DNA of 64,000 nucleotides from Tenuifilum sp. 4138str (GTDB lineage: Bacteria; Bacteroidota; Bacteroidia; Bacteroidales; Tenuifilaceae): NCBI RefSeq assembly GCF_041102575.1, contig NZ_JBGCUE010000001.1, positions 62,001-126,000 of the forward strand, read 5' to 3'. This document shows positions 5,430 through 50,551 of this stretch, in pieces; position 1 is the stretch's first letter; every line of letters begins with the position of its first letter. The notes under the pieces were generated by a model. It was not told the DNA's origin. It was given only the letters and a program-made list of their open reading frames with translations, and made no database searches. The position numbers and the translations under genes were made by a program.

Positions 5430-5759
5430 TGTCATCCTGAGCGGCCTGTCCCGCACTAGCGGGGAGCGAAGGATCTCTAATCGACCCCATGAGACGTTTT
5501 GCTCGCGCTCAACATGACAATAGTTTCAAGAACAACGCTTTCAGCCCCGTAGGGACGTAATATCTGTAACCCCACCTGTTAGTGCTCGTCTCCAGACGCG
5601 TGCATCATTCGCCCTGAAAGGGCAAATCGCATTAGCCCTGGGTTTTAACCCAGGGTATTGAGGTGTTCAAATTATTTTGCGATGCACGCAATACATATTC
5701 CTAAGAGCGAAACTGAAGCGTTGCATCGCAACGGAAAGGCATGGCAAAGAGTGGTTTAC
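5430..5759. repeat. Direct repeat, copy 1 (with 6263-6570)
   Basis: Begins TGTCATCCTGAGC and runs through a CCCCGTAGGGA mini-hairpin, the words GCCCTGAAAGGGC and CCCTGGGTTTTAACCCAGGG, to a segment reading GCGATGCACGCAATACAT. The same order and near-identical sequence recur at 6263-6570; copy 1 has extra bases after CCTGAGC. Confidence 0.85.
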
Positions 5760-6262: not shown

Positions 6263-6570
6263 TGTCATCCTGAGCATAGCGAAGGATCTCTAATTGACCC
6301 CATGAGATGTTTCGCTTGCGCTCAACATGACAATAGTTTCAATAACAACGCTTCCAGCCCCGTAGGAACGTAATATCTGTAACCCCACCTGTTAGAGCGC
6401 GTCTCCAGACGCGTGCATTATCCGCCCTGAAAGGGCAATTCACATTAGCCCTGGGTTTTAACCCAGGGTATTGAGGTGTTCAAATTATTTTGCGATGCAC
6501 GCAATACATTTTCCAAAGAACAATCCTGAAGCGTTGCATCGCAACGGAAAGGCATGGCGAAGAGCGGTTA
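6263..6570. repeat. Direct repeat, copy 2 (with 5430-5759)
   Basis: Second copy of the 5430-5759 repeat, about 830 bp downstream in the same orientation. It includes the truncated 5' part of the hairpin-bearing element and stops shortly before that element's long stem. Confidence 0.85.
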
Positions 6571-38816: not shown

Positions 38817-38971
38817 CGCCACAAAATACTAAAACCATCAACCGTCAACCATCAACCGTCAACCATCAACCATCAACTGTCAACTATCAACTATCAACCA
38901 TCAACCATCAACTTAATAATTGGCTTGAACCTTTTGGGATTCAGCCCGGAGATGATTTGATGGCATATTTA

Positions 38972-39289
38972 CTAAAAGATTTTTACCACTAAAACCCTTG
39001 CAGTGTTTGTTGATTTATTGGTAAGTGAACGACTTTCGTTAATCTCAACAAACGTAGCTGAATTTGGGGTAAGTAAAGCCGATTCGTTATTTACGGTGAG
39101 TTCAAGTTCCCCATCAAGTAGGTAGAATACAACGCCAAATGGGTTGGCATGCGCGGGTATTACCTCTCCTGGTTTAAGCGTTAGATGAACCATTTCTACT
39201 TTAGAACTTGAAAACATTATACGCCCGTCCAAATCGAATGGAACCTTTGGCGCGCTCAGTAGGGTTTCGGTTTTAATCATTTTTTTCAT
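38972..39289 (-). CDS. Small cupin protein (end of nitrite/NO operon)
   Basis: About 105 residues from ATG 39289 (a second ATG at 39280 is possible). The longer upstream frame overlaps ccsA and is rejected. Single-domain cupin: metal-site region HANPFGVVFYLLDGELEL (His, Gly-rich strand) and a beta-barrel ending ARVLVVKIF. Function unknown; small cupins often bind a metal or ligand. It lies 5 bp after ccsA and is the last gene of the long minus-strand operon; another cupin is encoded by the first gene after hcp. Confidence 0.8.
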   Translation of the reverse strand: MKKMIKTETLLSAPKVPFDLDGRIMFSSSKVEMVHLTLKPGEVIPAHANPFGVVFYLLDGELELTVNNESALLTPNSATFVEINESRSLTNKSTNTARVLVVKIF

Positions 39290-39294
39290 TTTTT

Positions 39295-40080
39295 TTAACC
39301 ACCATATACATGTATGCTTTGACTTGCAGAGGGCAAGTATTTTATTCCCAGCCAGGTAATTAGCAGAACCCCCAGTGCAACAATCATTAAATGAGCCAGT
39401 AGCTTGCGCTTGGTGGGCAAGTACCGGTGAATATGAATAACTAAAAGATAGAAGAACCAGGTAATTAATGCCCAAACCTCCTTTGGGTCCCATGCCCAGT
39501 AGTCACCCCATGCAAACTTAGCCCAGTAAGCGCCTAGGAGCATTCCCAGCGTTAAAAGTGCAAACCCGGGATATACTAGTCGCATTTGCTGCTGGAGTTC
39601 ATCGTGAACTGAACCTTTTGAAAATGATGTCCAAGCCACTGAAAGGCTTGCTGATGCAAGAACTGCATAGGCTAACATATACGAAACCACATGTGGTATA
39701 AACCAGGGGCTTTGAAGAGCAGGCATAAGAAACCTACCCTGATATTCTGGATGAATGATATCAACAACCAGAAAAACCGAGGCCATTATTAGGCCTATGG
39801 TTAGCATGTTTTTACTGCGATATGCTTTAAATACGCTTAGGCTAACAAGGCTCACCAGGAAAGAGTACCATATTCTAGTCTCAGCCATGGTTCGCATGGG
39901 CGGGCGTTTAATATCGAACCAGTATAAAATAATAAATACCCCCAAAAGAGCGCTGGCTGTAACTCCAGAATACCATAAAATGATTTTTCCTTTTGCGGAT
40001 TCTTTGTGGTTAAAGTAAACAGAAACTAACCAAAGTAATATCACAGTCAGAGCAACGGGAACAAAATAATTCCAAACCAT
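39295..40080 (-). CDS. ccsA: Cytochrome c assembly protein CcsA-like
   Basis: 261 residues, about eight transmembrane helices. The heme-handling WWD domain is seen as AKFAWGDYWAWDPKEVWALITW (about 205-226), with conserved histidines such as PHVVSYMLAY and IHIHRYLP. CcsA with ResB (Ccs1) forms system II cytochrome c synthase, which attaches heme to CxxCH motifs outside the cytoplasm. Here it directly follows the ResB-like gene and serves NrfA/NrfH upstream in the operon. Confidence 0.92.
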   Translation of the reverse strand: MVWNYFVPVALTVILLWLVSVYFNHKESAKGKIILWYSGVTASALLGVFIILYWFDIKRPPMRTMAETRIWYSFLVSLVSLSVFKAYRSKNMLTIGLIMASVFLVVDIIHPEYQGRFLMPALQSPWFIPHVVSYMLAYAVLASASLSVAWTSFSKGSVHDELQQQMRLVYPGFALLTLGMLLGAYWAKFAWGDYWAWDPKEVWALITWFFYLLVIHIHRYLPTKRKLLAHLMIVALGVLLITWLGIKYLPSASQSIHVYGG

Positions 40081-40084
40081 TTGT

Positions 40085-40708
40085 TTACTTTTTTGAATCG
40101 TTAATAAAAACCAAGCCTAATCCACCCAGGAGCATCATAGCAAATCCTATGTATATCAGGGGTAACCATGGGTCGTAGATTACCTTAAAGGAGCTGTAGG
40201 TTGAGTCTGGGCCAGCAAGATTATCGTATGAATACTGGTAAATCCACCAACCATCAACCCTAAAGGGTTTGTTTACCTCAATTAGGCATTGGTTTACGGA
40301 GTTTGATTTTTTTGAATAGATTTTGGCGTATGAACCAAAGTATTTTGCCTCGGCAGGTAAAAGTCTTAGCTCTCTGCCATCGGGAAGTGGAAGGGTCTTT
40401 TCGGCTGTAACATGGGTAAGGCTCGAGATCCAGCCCATTGTAACGGTTTGCCCATTCGAGTCAAATACTTGTATCATTGCCGCTGGCCCGGTAAAGGGAA
40501 CACCCCTTGCATCAATGAAGGTTGAATCGGTTGCAAATGCCTTGGGTAAGTATTGCATAACCTGAATGGTTAGGTTATCAATTTTAATGCTTGGGTTACT
40601 GTTTAGGTCGTATTCCGATTCTGGGAAGAATGTCTTACTACCCATTAAAGCCAATCGAGGTTGGTAGAATTGTGCTTCAAACTTTTGTAGTTCAATTGCT
40701 ATTGGCAA
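40085..40708 (-). CDS. ResB-like protein, C-terminal fragment (frameshifted)
   Basis: 207 residues if started at the TTG at 40708, but the reading frame is really the continuation of the preceding gene. In this frame the sequence runs back without a stop to about 40778 and encodes the expected linking stretch (TVQVNQNEIAWYGTDKNG, then SVIELPIAIELQKF). The C-terminal part is extracytoplasmic with ResB-like strands (IEVNKPFRVDGWWIYQYSYD) and a final transmembrane helix (PLIYIGFAMMLLGGLGLVF). Together with 40714-41301 it makes a ResB-like protein of about 405 residues. Confidence 0.85.
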   Translation of the reverse strand: MPIAIELQKFEAQFYQPRLALMGSKTFFPESEYDLNSNPSIKIDNLTIQVMQYLPKAFATDSTFIDARGVPFTGPAAMIQVFDSNGQTVTMGWISSLTHVTAEKTLPLPDGRELRLLPAEAKYFGSYAKIYSKKSNSVNQCLIEVNKPFRVDGWWIYQYSYDNLAGPDSTYSSFKVIYDPWLPLIYIGFAMMLLGGLGLVFINDSKK

Positions 40709-40713
40709 TTCAA

Positions 40714-41301
40714 TTACACTACCGTTCTTGTCTGTTCCGTACCATGCAATTTCATTCTGGTTAACCTGAACGGTTCCTCAATCTTATCGGAACTTCCTAC
40801 TAAACCTGCCGATAAGCAAACCCAAAGCCCTGCATGGTTAAGGGTGAAAATTATGTTTTTTAGGGTAATTGGAAATACACGGTTTACAACAGCCGCCCCT
40901 AAGGTTATTAGCATAAAAATTAAAGGGAATAAAAACAACCAGGAACCCAGTAGGTTAAATAATGCCCCGGGTATTCCCATACCATGTCCTATCTGTGGGA
41001 TAATTCCCATTAGAATAATTGAGAAGAGAAATAATGAAATTGATGGAATAGCTGACTTAACCGAGGCAAGCCAGTTGAAAAATTTCGATTTTGGGAAAAT
41101 GATTTTTAAGAGGATTAAAAGGTTAAGAATTGTAACTAAAACGATAGCATTGGTTGGGAAACCAGGTTTAGGAAATAGCGATAGAGGGACAAATAGTTCC
41201 AAAAAGAAAGCTAGTACCCATAACCCAACGGACACAATAAAACCCTCTAAAAAACCCCAAGGCCATAGCCAAAGGGGTTTCTTTTTAAATTGATTGCCCA
41301 T
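40714..41301 (-). CDS. ResB-like protein, N-terminal fragment (frameshifted)
   Basis: 195 residues in the present frame. Four transmembrane helices of the Bacteroidota ResB/Ccs1 type are seen, ending in the heme-channel region TLNHAGLWVCLSAGLVGSSDKIE (residues about 154-175). After SSDKIE the frame changes: the residues EPFRLTRMKLHGTEQTRTVV are out of frame and end at an early stop. One missing base near 40776-40779 (GAGGAA where GAGGGAA would restore the frame) explains the break. Part of the system II cytochrome c synthase with CcsA. Confidence 0.85.
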   Translation of the reverse strand: MGNQFKKKPLWLWPWGFLEGFIVSVGLWVLAFFLELFVPLSLFPKPGFPTNAIVLVTILNLLILLKIIFPKSKFFNWLASVKSAIPSISLFLFSIILMGIIPQIGHGMGIPGALFNLLGSWLFLFPLIFMLITLGAAVVNRVFPITLKNIIFTLNHAGLWVCLSAGLVGSSDKIEEPFRLTRMKLHGTEQTRTVV

Positions 41302-41312
41302 GATTTTGATTG

Positions 41313-42824
41313 CTACATTATTCTTTCAGGCAAAGGCATGTTCTGTTCACGCTCTTTTGCTAATTGTAACCACTTGGGAAGCACATTTTTCTTCCATTCT
41401 TCTTTCTCACCCTTAAGTTTTTTCAGATCAATCCCCACATAGGCCTGAGCTTTTTCCTTTGATGAAAGGTCTGGCATGGGAACAGGCTCATTGTGTCCTA
41501 ACGTTGCAAGTACCCTGGAGAGCTGTAAGCGTGCTTCTGAGGCTTTCTCTATTCCATCGGCAATTATTCGCATACTCTCAAGGGGAGCATGGAACGATGC
41601 TCCATGGCTTGCGGCTACAAAATCCCAACGCCACTGTGCTTGTCTGATTAGTTTTAGTACTGGCTCCATCATTTTTTCATTGGCGCCATTGTCCCATGCG
41701 AATTTTGCTTCTATATGTGCCTTTACCAACAAGTCTTCCAGTACAATTTTTTGGGTATATACTCTGTCCTGCCTATCGTAAACGTTCTTAATGAGTTCTT
41801 CTTTTGTTTGTTTATGACAAACCATGCAAGAGGCCTCCATGTTGTTCAGGGGGCTTTGAACCTTATGGTCGGTAATTTTCTGGCTACCTTCTGTAACGTA
41901 TGGCATATGACAATCGGCACATGAAACCCCGCGCTGGTAGTGAATGGAATGTTGGAAAAGCTCAAAATCGGGATGCTGAGCCTTTATGATTGGAGTTTTG
42001 CTTAAGGGGTGAATCCAGTCGGCAAATGCGTATTCGTCGTAGTACTTCTCAATGTCATCAACGTTAAGCCCTTTATCCCAAGGGAAGGTTACATATTTAC
42101 CATCGCCTTTAAAGTAGTACTCCACATGGCACTGGGCGCACACCATAGTGCGCATTTTATTTAACGGCAACGACTCAACATTTTTACCCATACGCTCATA
42201 AGCCTCTTTTAATGGAATTTGGAACAGGCGTAGAGTCATATCGCTTGGATTGTGGCAGTTTGCACAACCAATAGGGTTTACAATTTCCGAGAGCATAGCC
42301 GACCACTTTGTTTTGTAGAAATCGGCTGGCGACATTTTAGCCATAACCCTTGCAACATCGGGGCTCTTGCAAGCCCAGCAACTTGAATTTTGAGGGCCCT
42401 CATTCTCATTGGCAGGTGTGCCAGTGCGTAACGTATTATGAACATCCACCACTGAATATACATGACCTCGGGCCTGATTAAAATCTTTTGAAAAGGCATA
42501 GCCGGCAAAGAGTATTACCAGTCTTGGGTCTTCGTCAAGTAAATCGCGAAAAGCGCTTCCGCCATATTTTGACCGGAAAAGGGTATCAGACATCTGGGAG
42601 TAGGTTTGATACTCTCGCGGAAATGCCATACCCCATGCCTCGTTTCGGGGCTCAAACTCATCGATCTTATACCTTGGAGTATTCATTAGGTTTGCTTCTG
42701 TTCGTCGCTGAACAATGCTGGCTGCCAGTAAACCAAGAACAAAAACAACAATCATTGTTCCCAGAAATAATGCCCATCCAATCCATGGATTCTTAGCAAT
42801 TTTTTCACTTAACGGAGTTTTCAT
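41313..42824 (-). CDS. nrfA: Cytochrome c nitrite reductase NrfA (ammonia-forming)
   Basis: 503 residues with an N-terminal membrane anchor or signal (about 15-40). Pentaheme enzyme reducing nitrite to ammonia with six electrons; it also reduces NO and hydroxylamine. Catalytic heme motif CWACK (149-153) with the lysine ligand that defines NrfA, then CANCH (187-191), CAQCH (229-233), CADCH (302-306) and CMVCH (333-337). Active-site tyrosine region HVEYYFKG and KAQHPD histidine loop are present. Paired with NrfH 18 bp upstream. Confidence 0.97.
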   Translation of the reverse strand: MKTPLSEKIAKNPWIGWALFLGTMIVVFVLGLLAASIVQRRTEANLMNTPRYKIDEFEPRNEAWGMAFPREYQTYSQMSDTLFRSKYGGSAFRDLLDEDPRLVILFAGYAFSKDFNQARGHVYSVVDVHNTLRTGTPANENEGPQNSSCWACKSPDVARVMAKMSPADFYKTKWSAMLSEIVNPIGCANCHNPSDMTLRLFQIPLKEAYERMGKNVESLPLNKMRTMVCAQCHVEYYFKGDGKYVTFPWDKGLNVDDIEKYYDEYAFADWIHPLSKTPIIKAQHPDFELFQHSIHYQRGVSCADCHMPYVTEGSQKITDHKVQSPLNNMEASCMVCHKQTKEELIKNVYDRQDRVYTQKIVLEDLLVKAHIEAKFAWDNGANEKMMEPVLKLIRQAQWRWDFVAASHGASFHAPLESMRIIADGIEKASEARLQLSRVLATLGHNEPVPMPDLSSKEKAQAYVGIDLKKLKGEKEEWKKNVLPKWLQLAKEREQNMPLPERIM

Positions 42825-42842
42825 GTTGGTATAGGTTTAATT

Positions 42843-43430
42843 CTATTTAATCAGTTTCTTTAACCAGTTAGGGGTGTCAGTTTTAGGCACTGGTGCAGTG
42901 CCATATGGTGTTGCGGAAAGGCTTTTTACTGTGCCATGGGGTACCTCACGGTGACAATCCCAGCAGCGTTTCCCATTTCCGGCAAGTATTGTATCTAAAT
43001 CGACATTGGCTTTAACCATGGCTGTGAGGTTTCCATGGCAGCGTATGCAGTTTTCCTGAACCACTCTTTGCCCAGGCTTATGCATGTAAATGGTTTGGGG
43101 GTAAGTGTTTAGTGTAAAGATGGTGGCATGCCGCAAACCATCGTTTGCTTTAAAGTAATACTTACGGACGATGTTGTCGTGGGGTACGTGACAATCGTTG
43201 CAGGTGGCTTGTTCCCTATGCGATGAGTGGTGCCAGGTAACATATTGCGTCCTCATGATATGGCAATTAACGCACGTTGCAGGGTCGTCGGACACATACG
43301 ACCATGCCCTGGAGGTATAAAAAACAAACAATCCTGTTCCAGTGAAAATACCCGCCAATACAATTACTGGTACTCGCCAGTTTGGTGGGGGTTGAAAACG
43401 TTTTAGTATCTGTTTAGCCCAGTCAAACAT
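42843..43430 (-). CDS. nrfH: NrfH tetraheme quinol-oxidising subunit
   Basis: 195 residues. One N-terminal transmembrane helix (about 20-38) and four heme motifs: CVNCH (53-57), CNDCH (77-81), CIRCH (128-132), CWDCH (156-160). NrfH takes electrons from menaquinol and passes them to NrfA on the outer face of the inner membrane. The order nrfH-nrfA with 18 bp spacing is canonical. A UbiA enzyme near the left edge may contribute menaquinone, but the link is speculative. Confidence 0.96.
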   Translation of the reverse strand: MFDWAKQILKRFQPPPNWRVPVIVLAGIFTGTGLFVFYTSRAWSYVSDDPATCVNCHIMRTQYVTWHHSSHREQATCNDCHVPHDNIVRKYYFKANDGLRHATIFTLNTYPQTIYMHKPGQRVVQENCIRCHGNLTAMVKANVDLDTILAGNGKRCWDCHREVPHGTVKSLSATPYGTAPVPKTDTPNWLKKLIK

Positions 43431-43470
43431 ATCGATTTTTTTTCAAATTTAGGTAATAAAAAGTTTAGAA

Positions 43471-44976
43471 TCAATTTAAATATTTACGCTTATACCACAT
43501 CATAAAGCCCGATAGTACTACTACCACAAGGAAAATGCCTGTTAATGGAACCACCAGGATGTAAAAGTCGCCAAGTATAAAGCTGAAAATTCGACCGGTA
43601 TGGATTTCCTGAGCCAGATTCCACAGCGGGAATTTGAAAGCATCAGCAACTGTTGATGGCATTGGAATAGCAGGCTCTGAATGATGTAAAGCAACCATCC
43701 CTTTATCGTAATCGAATATGTATTCTAACCCTGAAATATGAGCGTATCCCGATACAACATTCTCGCCTAATGGTTTTCGTAGGCCGTTTTCTTTTCTATG
43801 CAGGTTGCCTGTTATGTAGTTGAAGGTTTCTCCCGTGTCGGGGTTCCAACGGAATAATCCGCTAAAGCTTCCCACCAGGTAAAACACGCTGTCTAGAGGC
43901 TCAAGAACATTGATGCCCATTACGCTAACTGGTGGCTGATTGGGAAACTTGGTTAAGGGCTCTGAGAAGTCAGTGCAATGGTAAATTCCATCGGACGTTG
44001 CCAGGATGAACTTTTTTCTAGCTGAGTCATATCTTATATCGCGAAGTTTATCGTTCCAGTAGTAGCTGTTAGAAACCTTTTGGTTGTTAAGCACTATTTG
44101 ACTATTGGCAATGGTTAGCAGGAAAGGAGGACGCAGGAAAGTTCCTGTTAGGCCCGATATTACCAATAGCAATGTAGCCAGTGCTCCTACCTTTAAGTGC
44201 CATTTATAAGAGAAACGGGTGGTACGTTTTAGTTTATGGAACCTGAATTGCTCATGGTACCTTTTGATTATTTTGGGGGATAAAAAGTAGATAATACCTG
44301 TAATGCTTAAGAATATCATGACCAAGGCAACCAAATCGGCTAATAATCGTCCGGGAATTCCAAAAATCTCGCCGCTATGAATATTCCAAAAAAGCCGGAA
44401 GGTTGATATTTCTTTTTTGGAACCTAGAGGGGCTTTCAAATCGATTGGCGTAAACTGCAGGGTTTGTGCCGATGAATAATAAATTGAATTACGTGTTGTA
44501 ATGTATATACTTGATTCGACCACCTCAATTGAGGTGCAGAATTCATCGCTTTGAGGTAGGTGCAACTTTACCCAATGATTTTCCCCTTTGCCAAGCCAGT
44601 ACAAACCGAAACGGGTGGCAGCAAGTATCCCGTTTGGGGTTACTTCAAGGTCAAAAATCTTTCTGTAATCGCTCCCTTCCGGGATACCATCCATTAAGGG
44701 CTTCCAATTTTCAAAATTGCCTTTGGTAAACCAAATCCCAATTCCCCCATAAAGGATGATAGAATCAGAGTAAATGGTTCTTGCTCCTTTTACCGATGCC
44801 AGGTTCCAGTTTTTTAACTGGTAGTTCTTAGGTAAATACTTACGGTTGATATCGATATGGGCAATGGTTTGCCGGTGATTCATCAAAACTCCCGAAATGG
44901 CAAAAAGCAAAAAAAACAATGTAAATACTAAAGCGGGCCATTTGTGGTACTTCCGCAGAGTACTATAAAAACTCAT
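43471..44976 (-). CDS. PepSY-associated membrane protein
   Basis: 501 residues with four transmembrane segments: KYHKWPALVFTLFFLLFAISGVLMNHR at the start (typical of PepSY_TM), two in the middle (about 215-240 and 255-275) and one at the end (about 475-497). Large extracytoplasmic loops with beta-propeller-like strands lie between. Such proteins are suspected electron-transfer or iron-reduction partners. Located between the DUF1858/DUF2249 gene and nrfH in the same direction; it may belong to electron delivery for this pathway. Function uncertain. Confidence 0.82.
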   Translation of the reverse strand: MSFYSTLRKYHKWPALVFTLFFLLFAISGVLMNHRQTIAHIDINRKYLPKNYQLKNWNLASVKGARTIYSDSIILYGGIGIWFTKGNFENWKPLMDGIPEGSDYRKIFDLEVTPNGILAATRFGLYWLGKGENHWVKLHLPQSDEFCTSIEVVESSIYITTRNSIYYSSAQTLQFTPIDLKAPLGSKKEISTFRLFWNIHSGEIFGIPGRLLADLVALVMIFLSITGIIYFLSPKIIKRYHEQFRFHKLKRTTRFSYKWHLKVGALATLLLVISGLTGTFLRPPFLLTIANSQIVLNNQKVSNSYYWNDKLRDIRYDSARKKFILATSDGIYHCTDFSEPLTKFPNQPPVSVMGINVLEPLDSVFYLVGSFSGLFRWNPDTGETFNYITGNLHRKENGLRKPLGENVVSGYAHISGLEYIFDYDKGMVALHHSEPAIPMPSTVADAFKFPLWNLAQEIHTGRIFSFILGDFYILVVPLTGIFLVVVVLSGFMMWYKRKYLN

Positions 44977-45009
44977 AATAGCAAAAGGCTTTTTCTTTCA
45001 GAAAATTGT

Positions 45010-45531
45010 TTACGGTTTATAGAAATAGATATTAAAGTGTTCATCGTCAATCTTTTCTACCCAGTGTTTTATTCCCAAGCTCGAAGCCTTATCTATTAAG
45101 GGTGCAGTAATAAATGGGGCAACCACTTTGTAGATTTTATCAGAACTCAGGTCGGTTAAATCGGCCATTATCTGGTTAACTGGTTGCTCGCCAGCCTGTA
45201 ACATCACCCTTACATCTATTTCTGAGGCAACTTTGTTAGAATCGAACCATTGTGGTTTCTGGGTGGTGAACTCCATCTCATCGGCACCCTCAAGCAAGTC
45301 CTGTCCTACAGCTTTCCGGAGGACATTAATAAGTTCCTCTACCTTAACATTTCCAATTGCTGCAGCTTGCTGAAGTGTTGCAACACGTGCAACTGTTTTC
45401 CTTAGAACAGGATTTTTCAGCTTTTCAAAAGCTGGAACATACCCAATAAGCACCTCCTCGAGCTGCGGGTATGCTTCAATTAGCTGCAAAACCTTGGTTT
45501 TAGGTGTTATAATGAGTTTGTTTTCGTCCAT
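45010..45531 (-). CDS. DUF1858/DUF2249 protein linked to NO and nitrite metabolism
   Basis: 173 residues, cytoplasmic. Residues 1-70 fit DUF1858 (ITPKTKVLQLIEAYPQLEEVLIGYVPAFEKLKNPVLRKTVARVATLQQAA), a small helical domain like the N-terminal domain of the iron-sulfur repair protein Ric/YtfE. Residues about 100-173 fit DUF2249 (EIDVRVMLQAGEQPVNQIMADL and IKHWVEKIDDEHFNIYFYKP), found in many denitrification and nitrosative-stress clusters. Stop of the hemerythrin gene is 2 bp upstream. The pairing suggests it cooperates with the hemerythrin domain protein. Mechanism unknown. Confidence 0.82.
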   Translation of the reverse strand: MDENKLIITPKTKVLQLIEAYPQLEEVLIGYVPAFEKLKNPVLRKTVARVATLQQAAAIGNVKVEELINVLRKAVGQDLLEGADEMEFTTQKPQWFDSNKVASEIDVRVMLQAGEQPVNQIMADLTDLSSDKIYKVVAPFITAPLIDKASSLGIKHWVEKIDDEHFNIYFYKP

Positions 45532-45533
45532 AA

Positions 45534-46766
45534 CTATTTGGAATATGATAGAATACGTTGTTCACCTTCAAGTTTGCGATACACTGAAACATTGTGCGAA
45601 ACCTCCAAAACACCAAGGTATTCACCTTTCTCGTTTCGTAATGCAAAGTACTCGATATGTATCAGGTTGCCACCAATATTAATCCAGAAGGGGGCTCTAG
45701 AAGCCTTTCCGCTTTTAAAGTCCTCAATGATTTTATCAACAATGTGTGCGCTGGCTGGGGGATGGCATAATCTTACATCGCGGTTAAGGATAGCCCTGTT
45801 ACGCTGGAATATTCTTTCGGGGCTTTGCGAGAAATACTTAACCTTATCGTTTTTGTCAACAAATGTGATATCAACTGGTAAGGTGTTAAGGATTGCCAGA
45901 AGTTCTTCCACTGAGAAACTACCCGTTGGGAGTTGAATGTTTTCGGCCGTTTTGTTTAACTCCTGAAGTTCGCTGCCTTCAACCCATGATGGTTTCCATT
46001 TTGTAGGAGGGTCGTATAGGCAAAAGCCTATTTCAAGCTGCTGCTTATGAATCTCGTACCAGTCAGCTTCAGTAAGCTTATCCAAGGCCATGGGGAAAAG
46101 AATTTCTTCCTCCTTGGTAGTCATTTCCATAACGCCTTTAATGGCAGGGCGAAGCACAATCTCGCTTGAGGCAATTAGTTCGTCGCGTGATATTCCTTCG
46201 GTTTGCAGGAGTTCAATTGAGCCTTTAATAAGCTCTCTTATTTCATCGTGTTTTCCCCACATTACCTTTGGAGGGCCAGTAATTCCCTGCTTTTCAAGAA
46301 AGGGGAAAAGTAGGTATTCCTTTCGCTGATAGTGCTTATCTACATCAAACAGAGCGTTAAACTGTCCCCTAAGCTTGAGTACAAGCTTTGGGATGTCAAC
46401 TGCTTCACTTGACTCAAGTTCCATAAGCGATTGCTCAATGGATTGGCAAAGCTGGTTGAGTTCTTTATTTTCCTTAATGAACACATCAACAGGGTGACCG
46501 TCGGGAATTTTTTTAACCGTGGTAAGATCGATATTCCCCTTCAGCACTGCTGAGTGTACATCGCAAAGTTTCAGTACTTCCTGTTCCGGTAAACCTTCGC
46601 TAATCAATTCCTGCTCAACCTCAACTACCTCGCCATAGGGAATATTAGTCAGGCTTTGTATTAGTTCCTGCCGCACTTCCTGTTCTGAGTCGCCTTTATG
46701 TAACCGGAGAATGAGCTCTTTGAGCTTTTTCTTCCTGTTTTCGGAGTTATTTATCAGTTCGCTCAT
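45534..46766 (-). CDS. DUF438-hemerythrin-PAS protein
   Basis: 410 residues from ATG 46766 (a longer frame to 46808 lacks support). N-terminal DUF438 (about 10-75), hemerythrin domain (about 90-245) with candidate iron ligands in YQRKEYLLFPFLEKQG, MWGKHDEIRELI and TTKEEEILFPMAL, then a PAS domain (about 285-405; ILNTLPVDITFVDKNDKVKYFSQSPERIF). A cytoplasmic diiron sensor of O2 or NO is likely. It may regulate or protect the operon's iron enzymes. Located 2 bp from the DUF1858 gene. Confidence 0.87.
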   Translation of the reverse strand: MSELINNSENRKKKLKELILRLHKGDSEQEVRQELIQSLTNIPYGEVVEVEQELISEGLPEQEVLKLCDVHSAVLKGNIDLTTVKKIPDGHPVDVFIKENKELNQLCQSIEQSLMELESSEAVDIPKLVLKLRGQFNALFDVDKHYQRKEYLLFPFLEKQGITGPPKVMWGKHDEIRELIKGSIELLQTEGISRDELIASSEIVLRPAIKGVMEMTTKEEEILFPMALDKLTEADWYEIHKQQLEIGFCLYDPPTKWKPSWVEGSELQELNKTAENIQLPTGSFSVEELLAILNTLPVDITFVDKNDKVKYFSQSPERIFQRNRAILNRDVRLCHPPASAHIVDKIIEDFKSGKASRAPFWINIGGNLIHIEYFALRNEKGEYLGVLEVSHNVSVYRKLEGEQRILSYSK

Positions 46767-46827
46767 GTTTTTTCTTTTAAAGTTAGGAATATAATAAGCG
46801 CAAGGCAAGGGAATTGATTAATGTCAA

Positions 46828-47160
46828 CTATTCCTTTATCATGGTAAGAACCATTTTAAACCTTTCCTCAGCCTGAAGTGCATGAGGTATGTTTGCAGGC
46901 ATAATAATTGTTTCGCCTGCAACTAGCTGGTGGGGTGTTCCACCGATTATTATTGTGGCTTTACCTTCAATAACCTGAACAACGGCATCAAAAGGTGCTG
47001 TGTGCTCGCTTAGACCCTCGCCCTTATCGAATGCAAAAAGCGAGATGTTTCCCGTTGGGCGTTTTAGCACATTTTTGCTTACTATGCCGCCATTACTGTA
47101 TTCAACCTCATTTATAAAGTTGAACTTATGTCCTTTAGGAAATTCATTCATTAAATTCAT
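46828..47160 (-). CDS. Cupin protein (first gene after hcp terminator)
   Basis: 110 residues from ATG 47160 (MNLMNEF); a second ATG lies at 47151. The frame extends to 47217, but that runs through the hcp terminator, so the short form is used. Cupin barrel with LFAFDKGEGLSEHTAPFDAVVQVIEGKATIIIGG and IIMPANIPHALQAEERFKMVLTMI, containing the likely metal His residues. Small cupins of this type are frequently next to hcp and hemerythrin genes in anaerobes. Probably first gene of the nrf operon after partial read-through from hcp; I found no TAnnTTTG element for it. Confidence 0.82.
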   Translation of the reverse strand: MNLMNEFPKGHKFNFINEVEYSNGGIVSKNVLKRPTGNISLFAFDKGEGLSEHTAPFDAVVQVIEGKATIIIGGTPHQLVAGETIIMPANIPHALQAEERFKMVLTMIKE

Positions 47161-47200
47161 AGCAATTTGGATTAGAGTTAATTTATGCACAAATGAAAAA

Positions 47201-47227
47201 TCCCAGCCGTAGTGCATACGGCTGGGA
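47201..47227 (-). terminator. Strong hairpin terminator after hcp
   Basis: On the minus strand, TCCCAGCCGTA and TACGGCTGGGA form a perfect 11-bp stem with a 5-nt loop, followed by TTTTT. It lies 8 bp past the hcp stop and before the cupin gene, so it should insulate hcp from the nrf operon or set a lower read-through level. Confidence 0.85.
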
Positions 47228-47234
47228 AAAATGG

Positions 47235-48881
47235 CTAGCCTACCATTAGCTTGATGTCTTCATCTACAGTAGTGATTCCACCAATTCCAAAGTTCTCAAC
47301 CAATACTTTGGCCACATTGGGAGAGAGGAATGCAGGAAGTGTTGGGCCTAGGTGAATGTTCTTTACTCCCAGGTAGAGTAGCGCAAGAAGAACAATTACA
47401 GCCTTTTGTTCATACCATGCAATGTTGTAGGCAATTGGCAGTTCATTGATATCGTTAAGTTGGAATACCTCTTTTAGCTTAAGAGCGATAACTGCCAATG
47501 AATAGGAATCGTTGCATTGGCCGGCATCAAGTACACGAGGAATTCCACCTATATCGCCCAAAGGTAATTTGTTATAGCGATATTTTGCGCAACCTGCAGT
47601 GAGGATAACTGTATCCTTTGGTAGTTTCTCAGCAAACTCGGTGTAGTAGTTGCGATCCTTCATACGGCCATCGCATCCGGCCATTACGATAAACTTACGA
47701 ATAGCTCCCGATTTTACAGCATCTACTACCTTGTCGGCCAAGGCAAACACCTGTTCGTGAGCAAATCCGCCTATAATTTCGCCCTTCTCTATCTCAACAG
47801 GAGGTTTGCAACGCTTTGCGTGTTCAATGATTGCGCTGAAATCCTTTGGTTTGCCATTCTCCCTGTCGGGTATGTGTTTTGCGCCCTCAAGACCTGCTGC
47901 ACCGGTTGTGTAAATCCTATCCTTATAGCTGGCATTGGCAAGTGGTGGAACAATACAGTTAGTGGTGAATAGGATTGGGCCATTGAACGACTCAAAATCC
48001 TCGCGCTGGTGCCACCAGCTGCTTCCGTAGTTACCCACAAAGTGTTTGTATTTCTTAAAAGCAGGGTAGTAGTTGGCGGGTAGCATCTCGCTATGGGTGT
48101 AAACATCAACCCCAGTGCCCTCGGTTTGGGCAAGGAGTTCCTCCATGTCCTTAAGGTCGTGACCACTGATTAGGATTCCCGGATTGTTACGAACGCCAAG
48201 GTTTACCTTGGTGATTTCAGGGTTACCGTAGCTGGTGGTGTTGGCCTTATCGAGCAGCGCCATGGTTTGCACGCCATACTTCCCGGTTTCAAGTGTGAGC
48301 GCAACCAACTCATCGGCATTCAAATTCTTTGTGATATCGGCCATGGCCTTTTGCATGAATGCATAAACAGCGGTGTCCTCAAAGCCAAGGTTGTAGGCAT
48401 GCTCGGCATAGGCAGCCATACCCTTTACGCCGTAGGTAATCAGTTCCTTAAGGGAACGGATATCCTCGTTGGTTTCGTTCAGAATTCCCACGGTGGCAGC
48501 TTTAGCATCAAACTCTTCGGGCTTACCTTCCCATGTGCATCCCTCAAAGGTGGTGTCAACCTTTACCCCTTTCTTTTGGGCTTCATCGCGCAGCATGTTA
48601 CGAATTTCTATGGCCTTTTCAACACGCTTCGTGATGGCTGTCTTATCAAAATTGGCATTGGTAATGGTGGAGAATAAGCTGTCAAAAACAAACTTGTTAA
48701 CCATAGGACTTTCGTAACCCTTTTGCTCGCGGAGCGCTGTGCTGTAAACGCAAATCCCCTTGGTTACAAAGAGCAGGAGATCCATCATATTGGCAAGGTC
48801 GTCGTTTTTACCGCAAACTCCCTTGATTGTGCAGCCTACTCCTTTGGCTGCTTCCTGGCACTGATAGCAAAACATACTCAT
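47235..48881 (-). CDS. hcp: Hybrid cluster protein / hydroxylamine reductase
   Basis: 548 residues, full length for the short (anaerobe-type) Hcp. The N-terminal cysteine set C5-x2-C8-x8-C17-x5-C23 binds a [4Fe-4S] cluster, followed by the hybrid-cluster ligands in [42 protein letters not shown] and [10 protein letters not shown]. Hcp reduces NO to N2O (and hydroxylamine in vitro) and acts against nitrosative stress. Encoded just after the ferredoxin-like protein (69 bp), which likely feeds electrons to it. Confidence 0.97.
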
Positions 48882-48950
48882 AGCTTGATTGTTTTTAGTA
48901 AATAGTTAAATGTAGTAAGTGAATTATTGATTTTGTTGATTATTTGCTGA

Positions 48951-49862
48951 TTAAACCCAGTTTGACTCTAAAATTTCACCCTGAATTCCAACAGTTATCA
49001 CCTTAATAGGTACCTTGCGTTTTGCATGTTCCATGGCCATACGGGCTAGCTGAACAAGCCCACCGCAGCAGGGAACCTCCATTTTCATCACAGTGATAGT
49101 GTCAACCTGTGCATCGTCAATTAGCGCAGTAATCTTCTCAACATACGATTCCTTGTTTGAGTCGAGCTTTGGGCAGGCAATAGCCAAGGTTTTACCCTTC
49201 AGGTGTTGGCTATGGAAATTGCCAAGGCTGAACGCCACACAGTCGGCTGCAAGCAACAGGTTTGAGCCGCGGAAATGACCCGAGTGTGGGTTAATCAGGT
49301 GTAGCTGTACGGGCCAGTGGGTTAGCTCCGATTTCCCCGAAACCATTCCCTCAGCACCTGCATTGGCTTGTGCAAAGCTGCGAACTGCCGAACCCGGACA
49401 ACCCCCACCATGGTGATGCATGGGTTGAGGCTTAACCTTGGGCTCGCTTGTCCCACAACCGCAGGCATCCTTGGTGTGGTTATGCACTGCTTGTAGCACC
49501 TCATCTACGCTGAACGTGAGTTTGTCGCGGTTGGCCAACAGCCACTCAACACCCTGGCGCAGATATTCCTTTTCGTTATAATCCTTTAGGTGCTTTAGGT
49601 GAGCAATAACGGTATTCTTACCGTTTGCCACCATCTTGCTAATGGTGTGTACCTCGTCGTAAGGCTCAGCCTCGCGGTGCTCAATGGTAATGGCACCCTC
49701 GGGGCATTCGCCTATGCAGGCTCCAAGTCCATCGCACATCAGCTCGCTGATCAGTACAGCTTTGCCATCAATAAGCTGTAGGGCTCCCTCGTGGCAACCA
49801 CTAACACATAGTCCGCAACCGTTGCACTTGCCCCTGTCAATTGTAATAATGTCGCGCTTCAT
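48951..49862 (-). CDS. 4Fe-4S ferredoxin-domain protein (Hcp partner)
   Basis: 303 residues. The first cluster motif is complete: CNGCGLCVSGC (C13, C16, C19, C23). The second reads CDGLGACIGEC (C43, C49, C53) and lacks the usual second cysteine, a form I recognise from similar Bacteroidota proteins next to hcp. Further cysteines occur in ACGCG and GGCPG (about 135-155) and in VPCCGGLVQLAR (about 270). Probably the electron donor for Hcp. First gene of the cluster; its promoter carries a Crp/Fnr palindrome. Confidence 0.88.
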   Translation of the reverse strand: MKRDIITIDRGKCNGCGLCVSGCHEGALQLIDGKAVLISELMCDGLGACIGECPEGAITIEHREAEPYDEVHTISKMVANGKNTVIAHLKHLKDYNEKEYLRQGVEWLLANRDKLTFSVDEVLQAVHNHTKDACGCGTSEPKVKPQPMHHHGGGCPGSAVRSFAQANAGAEGMVSGKSELTHWPVQLHLINPHSGHFRGSNLLLAADCVAFSLGNFHSQHLKGKTLAIACPKLDSNKESYVEKITALIDDAQVDTITVMKMEVPCCGGLVQLARMAMEHAKRKVPIKVITVGIQGEILESNWV

Positions 49863-49913: not shown

Positions 49914-49958
49914 CAAAAGTAGGCCAACCCCACTCCGCGAATTGTAACATATGTTACA
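49914..49958 (-). promoter_or_regulatory. Promoter with Crp/Fnr-type palindrome for the hcp cluster
   Basis: On the minus strand, TACTTTTG (49921-49914) matches the TAnnTTTG -7 element; no TTG lies at the expected -33. A perfect 16-bp palindrome, TGTAACATATGTTACA (49943-49958), is centred about 40 bp upstream of the predicted start (about 49911). This is the position of a class II activator of the Crp/Fnr family (FNR, HcpR or NnrR type). Regulator gene not in the window. Confidence 0.8.
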
Positions 49959-50145
49959 CACGGTGCGGATTTTGGAGTTTTTAGGGTTGATATATATCAA
50001 TACCGGAAGTTGTGCGGTGTATCAGGCTTCTGGAAAACTAGTGGCTATTAGTGTTTGAAGATAGTTGACAGTTGATAGTTGATGGTTGATAGTTGATAGT
50101 TGATAGTTGAGATTGCGGTTTGAGCACTCCCTGTAAGCGAAAATC

Positions 50146-50551
50146 TTCGCCGTAGGCGATATGGTATTGTAGGTTTCCGCGCAGCGGATAGGGAGATATA
50201 ATTGAAAAATCTATAATTTTATTATTCCCCGCATGGGATAATTTTTTCGCCGTAGGCGATATGGTATTGTAGCAAACCCAACGCCCCACCGTTTTTCTCT
50301 TCCCCGTAGTGGATAAACCCCAAATGCGTAACCCCTACGGGGTAAGGATATTTAATTCCGTTGTTTTTTTACAAAACCCTATGCCCTACGGGCAAAGCAT
50401 TTGGTGCATGATTTTGCCATAGGCGATAATTTTTTTCGCCGTAGGCGATATGGTATTGTAGAGAGAGTTTACCCGCAGGGGATAAGTTTTTTCGCCGTAG
50501 GCGATGAGGTATTGTAGGGTTTATGAAATAATAGCGGTATCCCCGTAGGGG
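50146..50551. repeat. Array of mini-hairpins with GTA/TAC loops
   Basis: Four copies of a 27-bp unit starting TTCGCCGTAGGCGAT and ending ATTGTAG lie at 50146-50172, 50246-50272, 50435-50461 and 50491-50517 (last with a changed base). Between them are other 3- to 5-bp stems with 3-4-nt loops: CCGC-gca-GCGG (50177-50187), CCC-gcat-GGG (50228-50237), ACCCC-tac-GGGGT (50331-50343), GCCC-tac-GGGC (50393-50403), GCC-ata-GGC (50416-50424), CCCC-gta-GGGG (50541-50551). Stems vary but stay paired. Confidence 0.75.

Follow-up and report, generated by a model that had tools for sequence, protein, structure and literature searches.

A probable two-gene counterpart of PG_0686 in a nitrite and nitric oxide gene cluster of Tenuifilum sp. 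4138str

The protein PG_0686 of Porphyromonas gingivalis comprises 517 amino acids with a hemerythrin domain (residues 96-215), a PAS10 domain (297-402), and a DUF1858 domain (421-497), and is reported to contain iron, to bind O2, and to be induced by nitric oxide (NO), O2, and H2O2 (PMC10101095). Its hemerythrin domain is described as non-canonical, its mutant as H2O2-sensitive, and diguanylate cyclase activity has been reported for it (PMC10101095). DrpB of Thermus thermophilus, which influences the expression of nitrate reductase, carries a DUF1858 domain and two DUF2249 domains (PMC6282519); DUF2249 proteins are induced during haloarchaeal denitrification (PMC11218638), and a Bradyrhizobium NnrR study lists a gene for a DUF1858 protein (PMC6710368). 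Here, we describe a cluster of eleven genes in a 64,000-nucleotide stretch of DNA from Tenuifilum sp. 4138str (contig NZ_JBGCUE010000001.1, positions 62,001 to 126,000; hereafter the window), in which domains of the PG_0686 type are encoded by two adjacent genes beside genes for nitrite and NO reduction.

The first gene of the pair encodes D438Hr (45534-46766, minus strand), in which Pfam identified DUF438, hemerythrin-like, and PAS_10 domains. The second encodes the cysteine-free D1858 (45010-45531, minus strand), which comprises a DUF1858 domain (Pfam) and a DUF2249-like domain with a predicted TusA fold. Only 2 bp lie between them (45534 and 45531), as a first-pass annotation of the sequence had stated. 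This arrangement, DUF438-like/hemerythrin/PAS10 and then DUF1858 in adjacent genes, is an architecture of the PG_0686 type, with the domains in equal order and a cysteine at position 69 in PG_0686 as in D438Hr (PMC10101095). The two differ in that PG_0686 is one protein and the pair is two, with the likeness drawn by description and by way of fused relatives, and in that DUF2249 is not named for PG_0686 in the available passages of that study (PMC10101095). D438Hr was fused in three of the nine fetched long open reading frames (ORFs) with a D1858 match, the other six being unfused: it is joined to DUF1858 in L202 and L205, which is the architecture of PG_0686, and to a DUF2249-like part in L206. 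Because such fusions occur naturally, the pair is best read, on its domain layout, as a split PG_0686-type protein and not as a split RIC. DrpB and its partner DrpA share with the pair the order DUF1858 then DUF2249, a gene position beside a nitrogen-oxide respiration operon, and a regulatory effect; DrpB has two DUF2249 domains whereas D1858 has one DUF2249-like domain, and DrpA is a small DUF2249 protein; the available passages mention neither a hemerythrin nor a PAS partner (PMC6282519). No description of the two-gene pair was found in the open-licence literature searched, most papers of which were judged by their listing. We consider that the cluster probably provides layered nitrite/NO defence together with ammonification, with the pair as a two-protein, cytoplasmic version of PG_0686.

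GTDB genomes scanned with a D1858 alignment yielded 542 relatives, of which the best 80 provide the counts of named loci given here. D438Hr was directly upstream of D1858 in 77 of these 80 loci, with gaps of -4 to +14 bp in 64 of the 77. The three unpaired loci comprised one with a D438Hr match incomplete at a contig edge (L192) and two with only 543 and 233 bases upstream (L171 and L172, respectively). The pair was also adjacent in all 20 order-level regions around the best matches, with D438Hr as a partial ORF in L047. According to record titles (unchecked), the hosts are mostly Bacteroidales, Bacteroidetes, or their families, and other metagenome-assembled genomes (MAGs) are titled Calditrichia, Deltaproteobacteria, Chlorobiota, Ignavibacteriae, Aminicenantes, Acidobacteria, Chloroflexi, and others. 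This broad host range suggests that the pair was likely spread by transfer or has a wide ancestry. The nearest named records were Bacteroidales MAGs (D1858 identity of 99% for L113 and 97% for L114). In three MAGs titled Calditrichia, Deltaproteobacteria, and Actinomycetota (L115, L117, and L120), D1858 was 67-70% identical to that of the window, a likeness that may reflect either gene transfer or misbinning.

Residues of D438Hr are numbered along 45534-46769 of the window, one more than when counted from the ATG. Lysine (K150) occupies the carboxylate position of the first HxxxE motif, and methionine (M216) the histidine position of the last, in all 75 paired D438Hr proteins; H146 is retained in 67 and H174 in 68. 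Strong conservation was observed for H24, C69, H72, H92, K150, M216, and a CHPP motif in the PAS domain. The predicted D438Hr model (mean predicted local distance difference test score, pLDDT, of 80.8) matched PF0695 (3cax; Z 23.1, root-mean-square deviation (rmsd) 20.8, 311 residues aligned) and the PAS domain of SMU_1151c (2qkp; Z 16.8, rmsd 2.1, 133 aligned). A match to the hemerythrin domain of FBXL5 (Z 12.4, rmsd 3.0, 150 aligned) fell within the range for which the tool warns of helical bundles and was set aside. The D1858 model (pLDDT 82.0; predicted template modelling score 0.49) resembled 2fi0 in its N-terminal DUF1858 domain (Z 9.5, rmsd 2.6, 74 aligned), and its residues 97-173 matched YeeD/TsuB (Z 10.2, rmsd 1.9, 73 aligned), a TusA fold, and TusA itself (3lvj; Z 8.8, rmsd 2.4, 73 aligned). 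Foldseek alone gave a best E of 0.007 for D1858 and none below 0.001, and NCBIfam yielded no match to the DUF1858 protein or to a 76-amino-acid piece of it. The predicted fold supports the DUF2249 assignment, which scored 17.6 bits in Pfam, below the cut-off of 29.5. Although D1858 is predicted to share the fold of the TusA sulfur carrier, the catalytic cysteine of TusA has no counterpart in the window protein or in 70 of 80 relatives, all of which are cysteine-free, and no cysteine was invariant among 46 sequences.

These features bear on a claim of the first-pass annotation, which had taken the two genes for a split analogue of Ric/YtfE. RIC/YtfE/ScdA proteins (TIGR03652) resemble the pair in joining a hemerythrin-type domain to a small helical partner domain and in their NO context. 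They differ in that RIC has HxxxE motifs and a CC motif, both lacking from the pair: HxxxE motifs were found in none of the 75 paired D438Hr proteins and at both sites in 13 of 13 neighbouring RIC-type proteins, and the ScdA_N CC, present in the same 13, has no counterpart in D1858, DUF1858 standing in the pair in place of ScdA_N. Moreover, 13 of 80 loci have a RIC-type gene within eight genes of the pair (2 of the 13 were scanned, both scoring above the TIGR03652 cut-off). The split-RIC reading is therefore rejected. DUF1858 and ScdA_N are alike as small helical domains, and no match to ScdA_N was found in the genome of the window; both points would favour the pair as a functional stand-in for RIC, which is considered below.

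Neighbours of the pair were counted within eight genes on either side; 38 of the 80 loci span less than 15 kb and 42 span at least 15 kb. The families identified most often were Rrf2 (21 loci), PepSY (16), NorB (14), RIC-type (13), cupin B (12), NrfH and cupin A (9 each), and NrfA, FdX, and Hcp (8 each), with others in at most 7. A random single-copy gene would be expected in fewer than 1 of 80 loci (80 x 16 / ~3,000 genes), although the genomes are related. Representatives (three Rrf2, one NorB, two RIC-type, and one porin) were checked against family libraries, and all 27 Rrf2 proteins near the pair have three spaced cysteines. At least one of norB, RIC, hcp, or nrf genes was near the pair in 32 of 80 loci. 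Both norB and a RIC-type gene adjoin it in the cultured, free-living Draconibacterium aestuarii Z1-6 and Maribellus sediminis Y2-1-60. In four loci (L133, L144, L165, and L178), FdX, Hcp, D438Hr, D1858, cupin A, PepSY, NrfH, and NrfA recur in another order together with an alginate-export porin. Comparison of gene order, proposed in the first-pass annotation, thus shows relatives with the same families differently ordered, which backs its nitrosative-stress reading. No common palindrome was detected 5' of the pair, every half-site being found in at most 3 of 72 upstream regions of named loci. The FNR-type sequence TTGATnnnnATCAA was exact in one of the 72 (L114) and present with one mismatch in two; between cupin A and D438Hr it is exact in genomes G161 and G164 and has one mismatch in the window, relatives too close to count.

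Most of the cluster is ordinary and represents a system of a known kind, compactly arranged. The frdX-type gene (FdX; 48951-49862) encodes a 2[4Fe-4S] ferredoxin-domain protein according to Fer4 domains in Pfam, and is a partner of hcp in relatives. It is followed by hcp for the hybrid cluster protein (47235-48881; TIGR01703, 756.7 bits, cut-off 360.8) and by cupin A (46828-47160; Pfam Cupin_2, 38.0 bits), for which 3rns and 1yhf are the closest solved structures in the PDB by sequence comparison. Beyond the pair lie genes for a PepSY_TM membrane protein (43471-44976; Pfam, 75.1 bits), NrfH (42843-43430; TIGR03153, 170.6 bits, cut-off 134.2; four CXXCH motifs), and NrfA (41313-42824; NF008339, 618.3 bits, cut-off 595; one CXXCK and four CXXCH motifs), the last of which scored 506.4 bits against TIGR03152, under its cut-off of 692.5. 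These are followed by resB (40085-41301), ccsA (39295-40080; Pfam Cytochrom_C_asm, 102.3 bits; TIGR03144, 119.9 bits, under the cut-off of 187.6), and cupin B (38972-39289; Pfam Cupin_2, 41.6 bits). The eleven genes that the first-pass annotation had listed on one strand between 38972 and 49862 were all found, on the minus strand and in its order, with two amendments: DUF2249 is sub-threshold in Pfam, and resB is frameshifted into two ORFs (40714-41301 and 40085-40708), only the second of which contains a ResB domain detectable by Pfam. Alignment with G161, a genome of the same species, shows a 1-bp frameshift between two frames; resB is a single ORF in G161 and G164, and the frameshift in the window may be either real or an assembly error. 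The reading of the cluster as a nitrite/NO-to-ammonia and nitrosative-stress module is well supported: Hcp, NrfH, and NrfA are intact, and system II genes and an HcpR2-type site are present. Elsewhere in the window, a 292-nt direct repeat (93%) at 5465-5756 and 6278-6569 contains in each copy a match to the Acido-Lenti-1 RNA (RF01687, minus strand, 5610-5655 and 6423-6468) barely above the gathering score.

Both halves of this set have described counterparts. As a pair, frdX and hcp are classic targets of HcpR: the core of the HcpR regulon comprises hcp and the ferredoxin-like frdX with the HcpR2 motif GTAACnnnnGTTAC, the consensus published by Rodionov and co-workers, although for most Bacteroides species the predicted HcpR2 regulons contain hcp genes alone (PMC1274295). 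In the window, frdX comes first behind a predicted site. nrfHA-resB-ccsA is a known Bacteroides operon, with nrfH, nrfA, a resB-type gene, and ccsA in one nitrite reductase operon of B. thetaiotaomicron (BT1414-BT1418; PMC10434189). There, hcp lies ~0.89 Mb from nrfA (preprint PMC13370916), whereas in the window the two are neighbours and, unlike in B. thetaiotaomicron, the nrf block is accompanied by cupins, PepSY, and the D438Hr-D1858 pair.

The HcpR2-type palindrome GTAACATATGTTAC (49944-49957, minus strand) is upstream of frdX and is the sole exact match in the window, for which 0.10 would be expected by chance. A TAnnTTTG element, TACTTTTG (49914-49921, minus strand), which we take to be the Bacteroidetes -7 promoter type, begins 29 bp away from the box centre. 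Given this spacing, the box is presumably near -41, where class II FNR-type activators bind. The upstream regions of frdX were compared between the window and nine family genomes (the window and G161 representing one species): the box is exact in 8 of 10, with one mismatch in G138 and two in G024, and its centre lies exactly 29 bp from the start of TAnnTTTG in all 10 despite diverged surrounding DNA. L193 is the only one of the seven CRP/FNR proteins of the genome with Arg-Pro in the recognition helix (by eye), and this specificity pair correlates with the HcpR2 motif (PMC1274295). In B. thetaiotaomicron, hcp transcription requires HcpR, which binds haem (preprint PMC13370916). We infer that an HcpR-type regulator binds the site at 49944-49957. 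A scan for sigma-70 promoters was uninformative (19 seen, 24.8 expected). Just upstream of the frdX promoter, at 50123-50517, four 50-nt repeats carry the palindrome CGCCTACGGCG, for which the window contains 7 matches, allowing at most one mismatch, where 0.34 would be expected. In G138 (L210), FdX, Hcp, and cupin A contain one stop each beside the box with its one mismatch, and this unit seems to be decaying together.

An intrinsic terminator (47201-47227, minus strand) is located 3' of hcp; an 11-bp stem, a T-run, and the folding energy (-20.7 kcal/mol, z -7.6) confirm the division that the first-pass annotation had drawn there between the first two genes and the rest. The hairpin is retained in G164, G162, and G165 (four genomes with the window), and in G165 another stem sequence forms an equally strong hairpin (-22.4 kcal/mol). 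TTGATTCTAA occurs upstream of nrfH in the window (43425-43480) and in L114, L073, and L074, with DNA beyond it less alike, and TAAATTTG lies by this region at 43451. A separate nrfHA promoter near 43425-43480 is possible on the strength of these motifs.

Within the family, the full gene set was identified in G161 (over two contigs) and G164. The locus in G160 comprises FdX, Hcp, two cupins, NrfH, NrfA, ResB, CcsA, and cupin B, and PepSY and the pair are not there. In G162 (78% complete), FdX, Hcp, cupin A, and cupin B are consecutive, with no match to nrfA or D438Hr in the genome, and in G163 (77% complete) a decayed 5' piece of D438Hr follows cupin A. Matches among 27 family genomes numbered 25 for Hcp, 18 for NrfA, and 6 for D438Hr; the six include the fragment in G163, a protein only 35% identical in G167, and one with a stop in G151. 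Genome G151 shares DNA with a record of Perlabentimonas gracilis (L149; Tenuifilaceae at NCBI), and its 73% identical D438Hr match (L087 / L149) has one in-frame TAA, which may reflect a start-site difference, decay, or sequencing error. Flanked by two older cupin neighbours, the segment spanning D438Hr through CcsA behaves like a cassette and has decayed at least once. The earlier observation that the nrf part is bracketed by two cupins holds, and the reason is that the block that is gained or lost sits between them, cupin A and cupin B being neighbours in the congener G162. GTTGATGGTTGA-type tracts flank the cluster at 38830-38910 and 50060-50110 and might be insertion edges or simple junk repeats.

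In the mechanism that we propose, an HcpR-type regulator would bind the 49944-49957 site and activate frdX-hcp from the TAnnTTTG promoter. Hcp would draw electrons from the FrdX-type ferredoxin to reduce NO, and the terminator would limit read-through to the second unit, whose genes would presumably be expressed under common control. NrfH and NrfA would convert periplasmic nitrite (and NO) to ammonia, with ResB-CcsA attaching the haems of both. In the cytoplasm, the hemerythrin-like and PAS domains of D438Hr may sense NO or the redox state, and D1858 could relay the signal through its cysteine-free TusA-fold domain, as proposed for DrpB in Thermus nitrate respiration. NO would then be the signal, and the pair would sense rather than catalyze; cytoplasmic NO/redox sensing and signalling is its most likely role.

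Several observations weigh against this proposal. The HcpR2 motif is not enriched genome-wide (9 places compared with 18 for a reversed control), so that no regulon can be read from it, and only 1 of the 80 named loci (L114) and 3 of 20 order-level regions have the exact box at the cluster. In B. thetaiotaomicron, nrfA changes only modestly when hcpR is deleted (preprint PMC13370916); HcpR therefore need not govern the second unit, which fits with separate control of that unit. The congener G165 has the same gene order and keeps hcp and nrf, with no D438Hr match and no D1858 at the locus, and in P. gracilis, of the same family, the pair is elsewhere with none of its recurrent neighbours near. 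We know of no output domain for the pair. The cyclic di-GMP synthesis reported for PG_0686 (PMC10101095) is not explained by this model. Lastly, 48 of 80 loci showed no gene for an N-oxide enzyme in the vicinity of the pair, and such a gene was present in only 14 of the 42 loci of at least 15 kb. By analogy with PG_0686, the pair may serve something wider, such as a response to O2 or peroxide.

The first of these two counts, 48 of 80, would also be expected if the pair senses oxygen or peroxide as part of the general oxidative stress response of anaerobes, with its presence in NO clusters secondary, as would the induction of PG_0686 by H2O2 and O2 and the H2O2 sensitivity of its mutant (PMC10101095). 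This is nevertheless unlikely given that, among the ten families that neighbour the pair in at least 8 of 80 loci, seven (NorB, RIC-type, NrfH, NrfA, Hcp, FdX, and Rrf2) are N-oxide enzymes or their usual partners and regulators, the other three being PepSY and the two cupins, with no further family in more than 7 loci. Equally doubtful is an enzyme or scavenger, in which D438Hr would use an unusual metal or haem site to bind NO and then reduce or sequester it, D1858 being a structural subunit. The strong conservation of H24, C69, H72, H92, K150, M216, and the PAS CHPP motif, the presence of norB and hcp beside the pair in some loci, and the iron and O2 binding reported for PG_0686 (PMC10101095) are consistent with such a protein, whereas the PAS domain suggests signalling, the pair lacks a redox partner, and an NO-consuming activity would be redundant next to NorB, Hcp, or NrfA. 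That the pair stands in for RIC/YtfE, with D438Hr holding iron and giving it to damaged Fe-S clusters with the help of D1858, draws on the iron reported in PG_0686 (PMC10101095) and is highly improbable in light of the co-occurring RIC-type genes and the lacking HxxxE and CC motifs.

The pair is the unusual part of the cluster, widely conserved and almost unstudied. We tentatively suggest, as a possibility that goes further than the reading of the cluster itself, that it may represent a so far undescribed system for NO/redox signalling, made of two proteins and occurring in Bacteroidota and other groups. In such a system, a protein combining a PAS domain with a hemerythrin-like domain that has lost the canonical di-iron motifs would control the nitrosative response via a cysteine-free TusA-fold partner. 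For the family, the comparison provides an exactly placed, conserved promoter site for putative HcpR-type control of hcp. More broadly, adjacency, fusions, and NO-detoxification neighbours in part of the loci give the little-studied DUF438, DUF1858, and DUF2249 domains a firm joint context, such that scattered domains become one testable unit that links PG_0686 of Porphyromonas to DrpB of Thermus.

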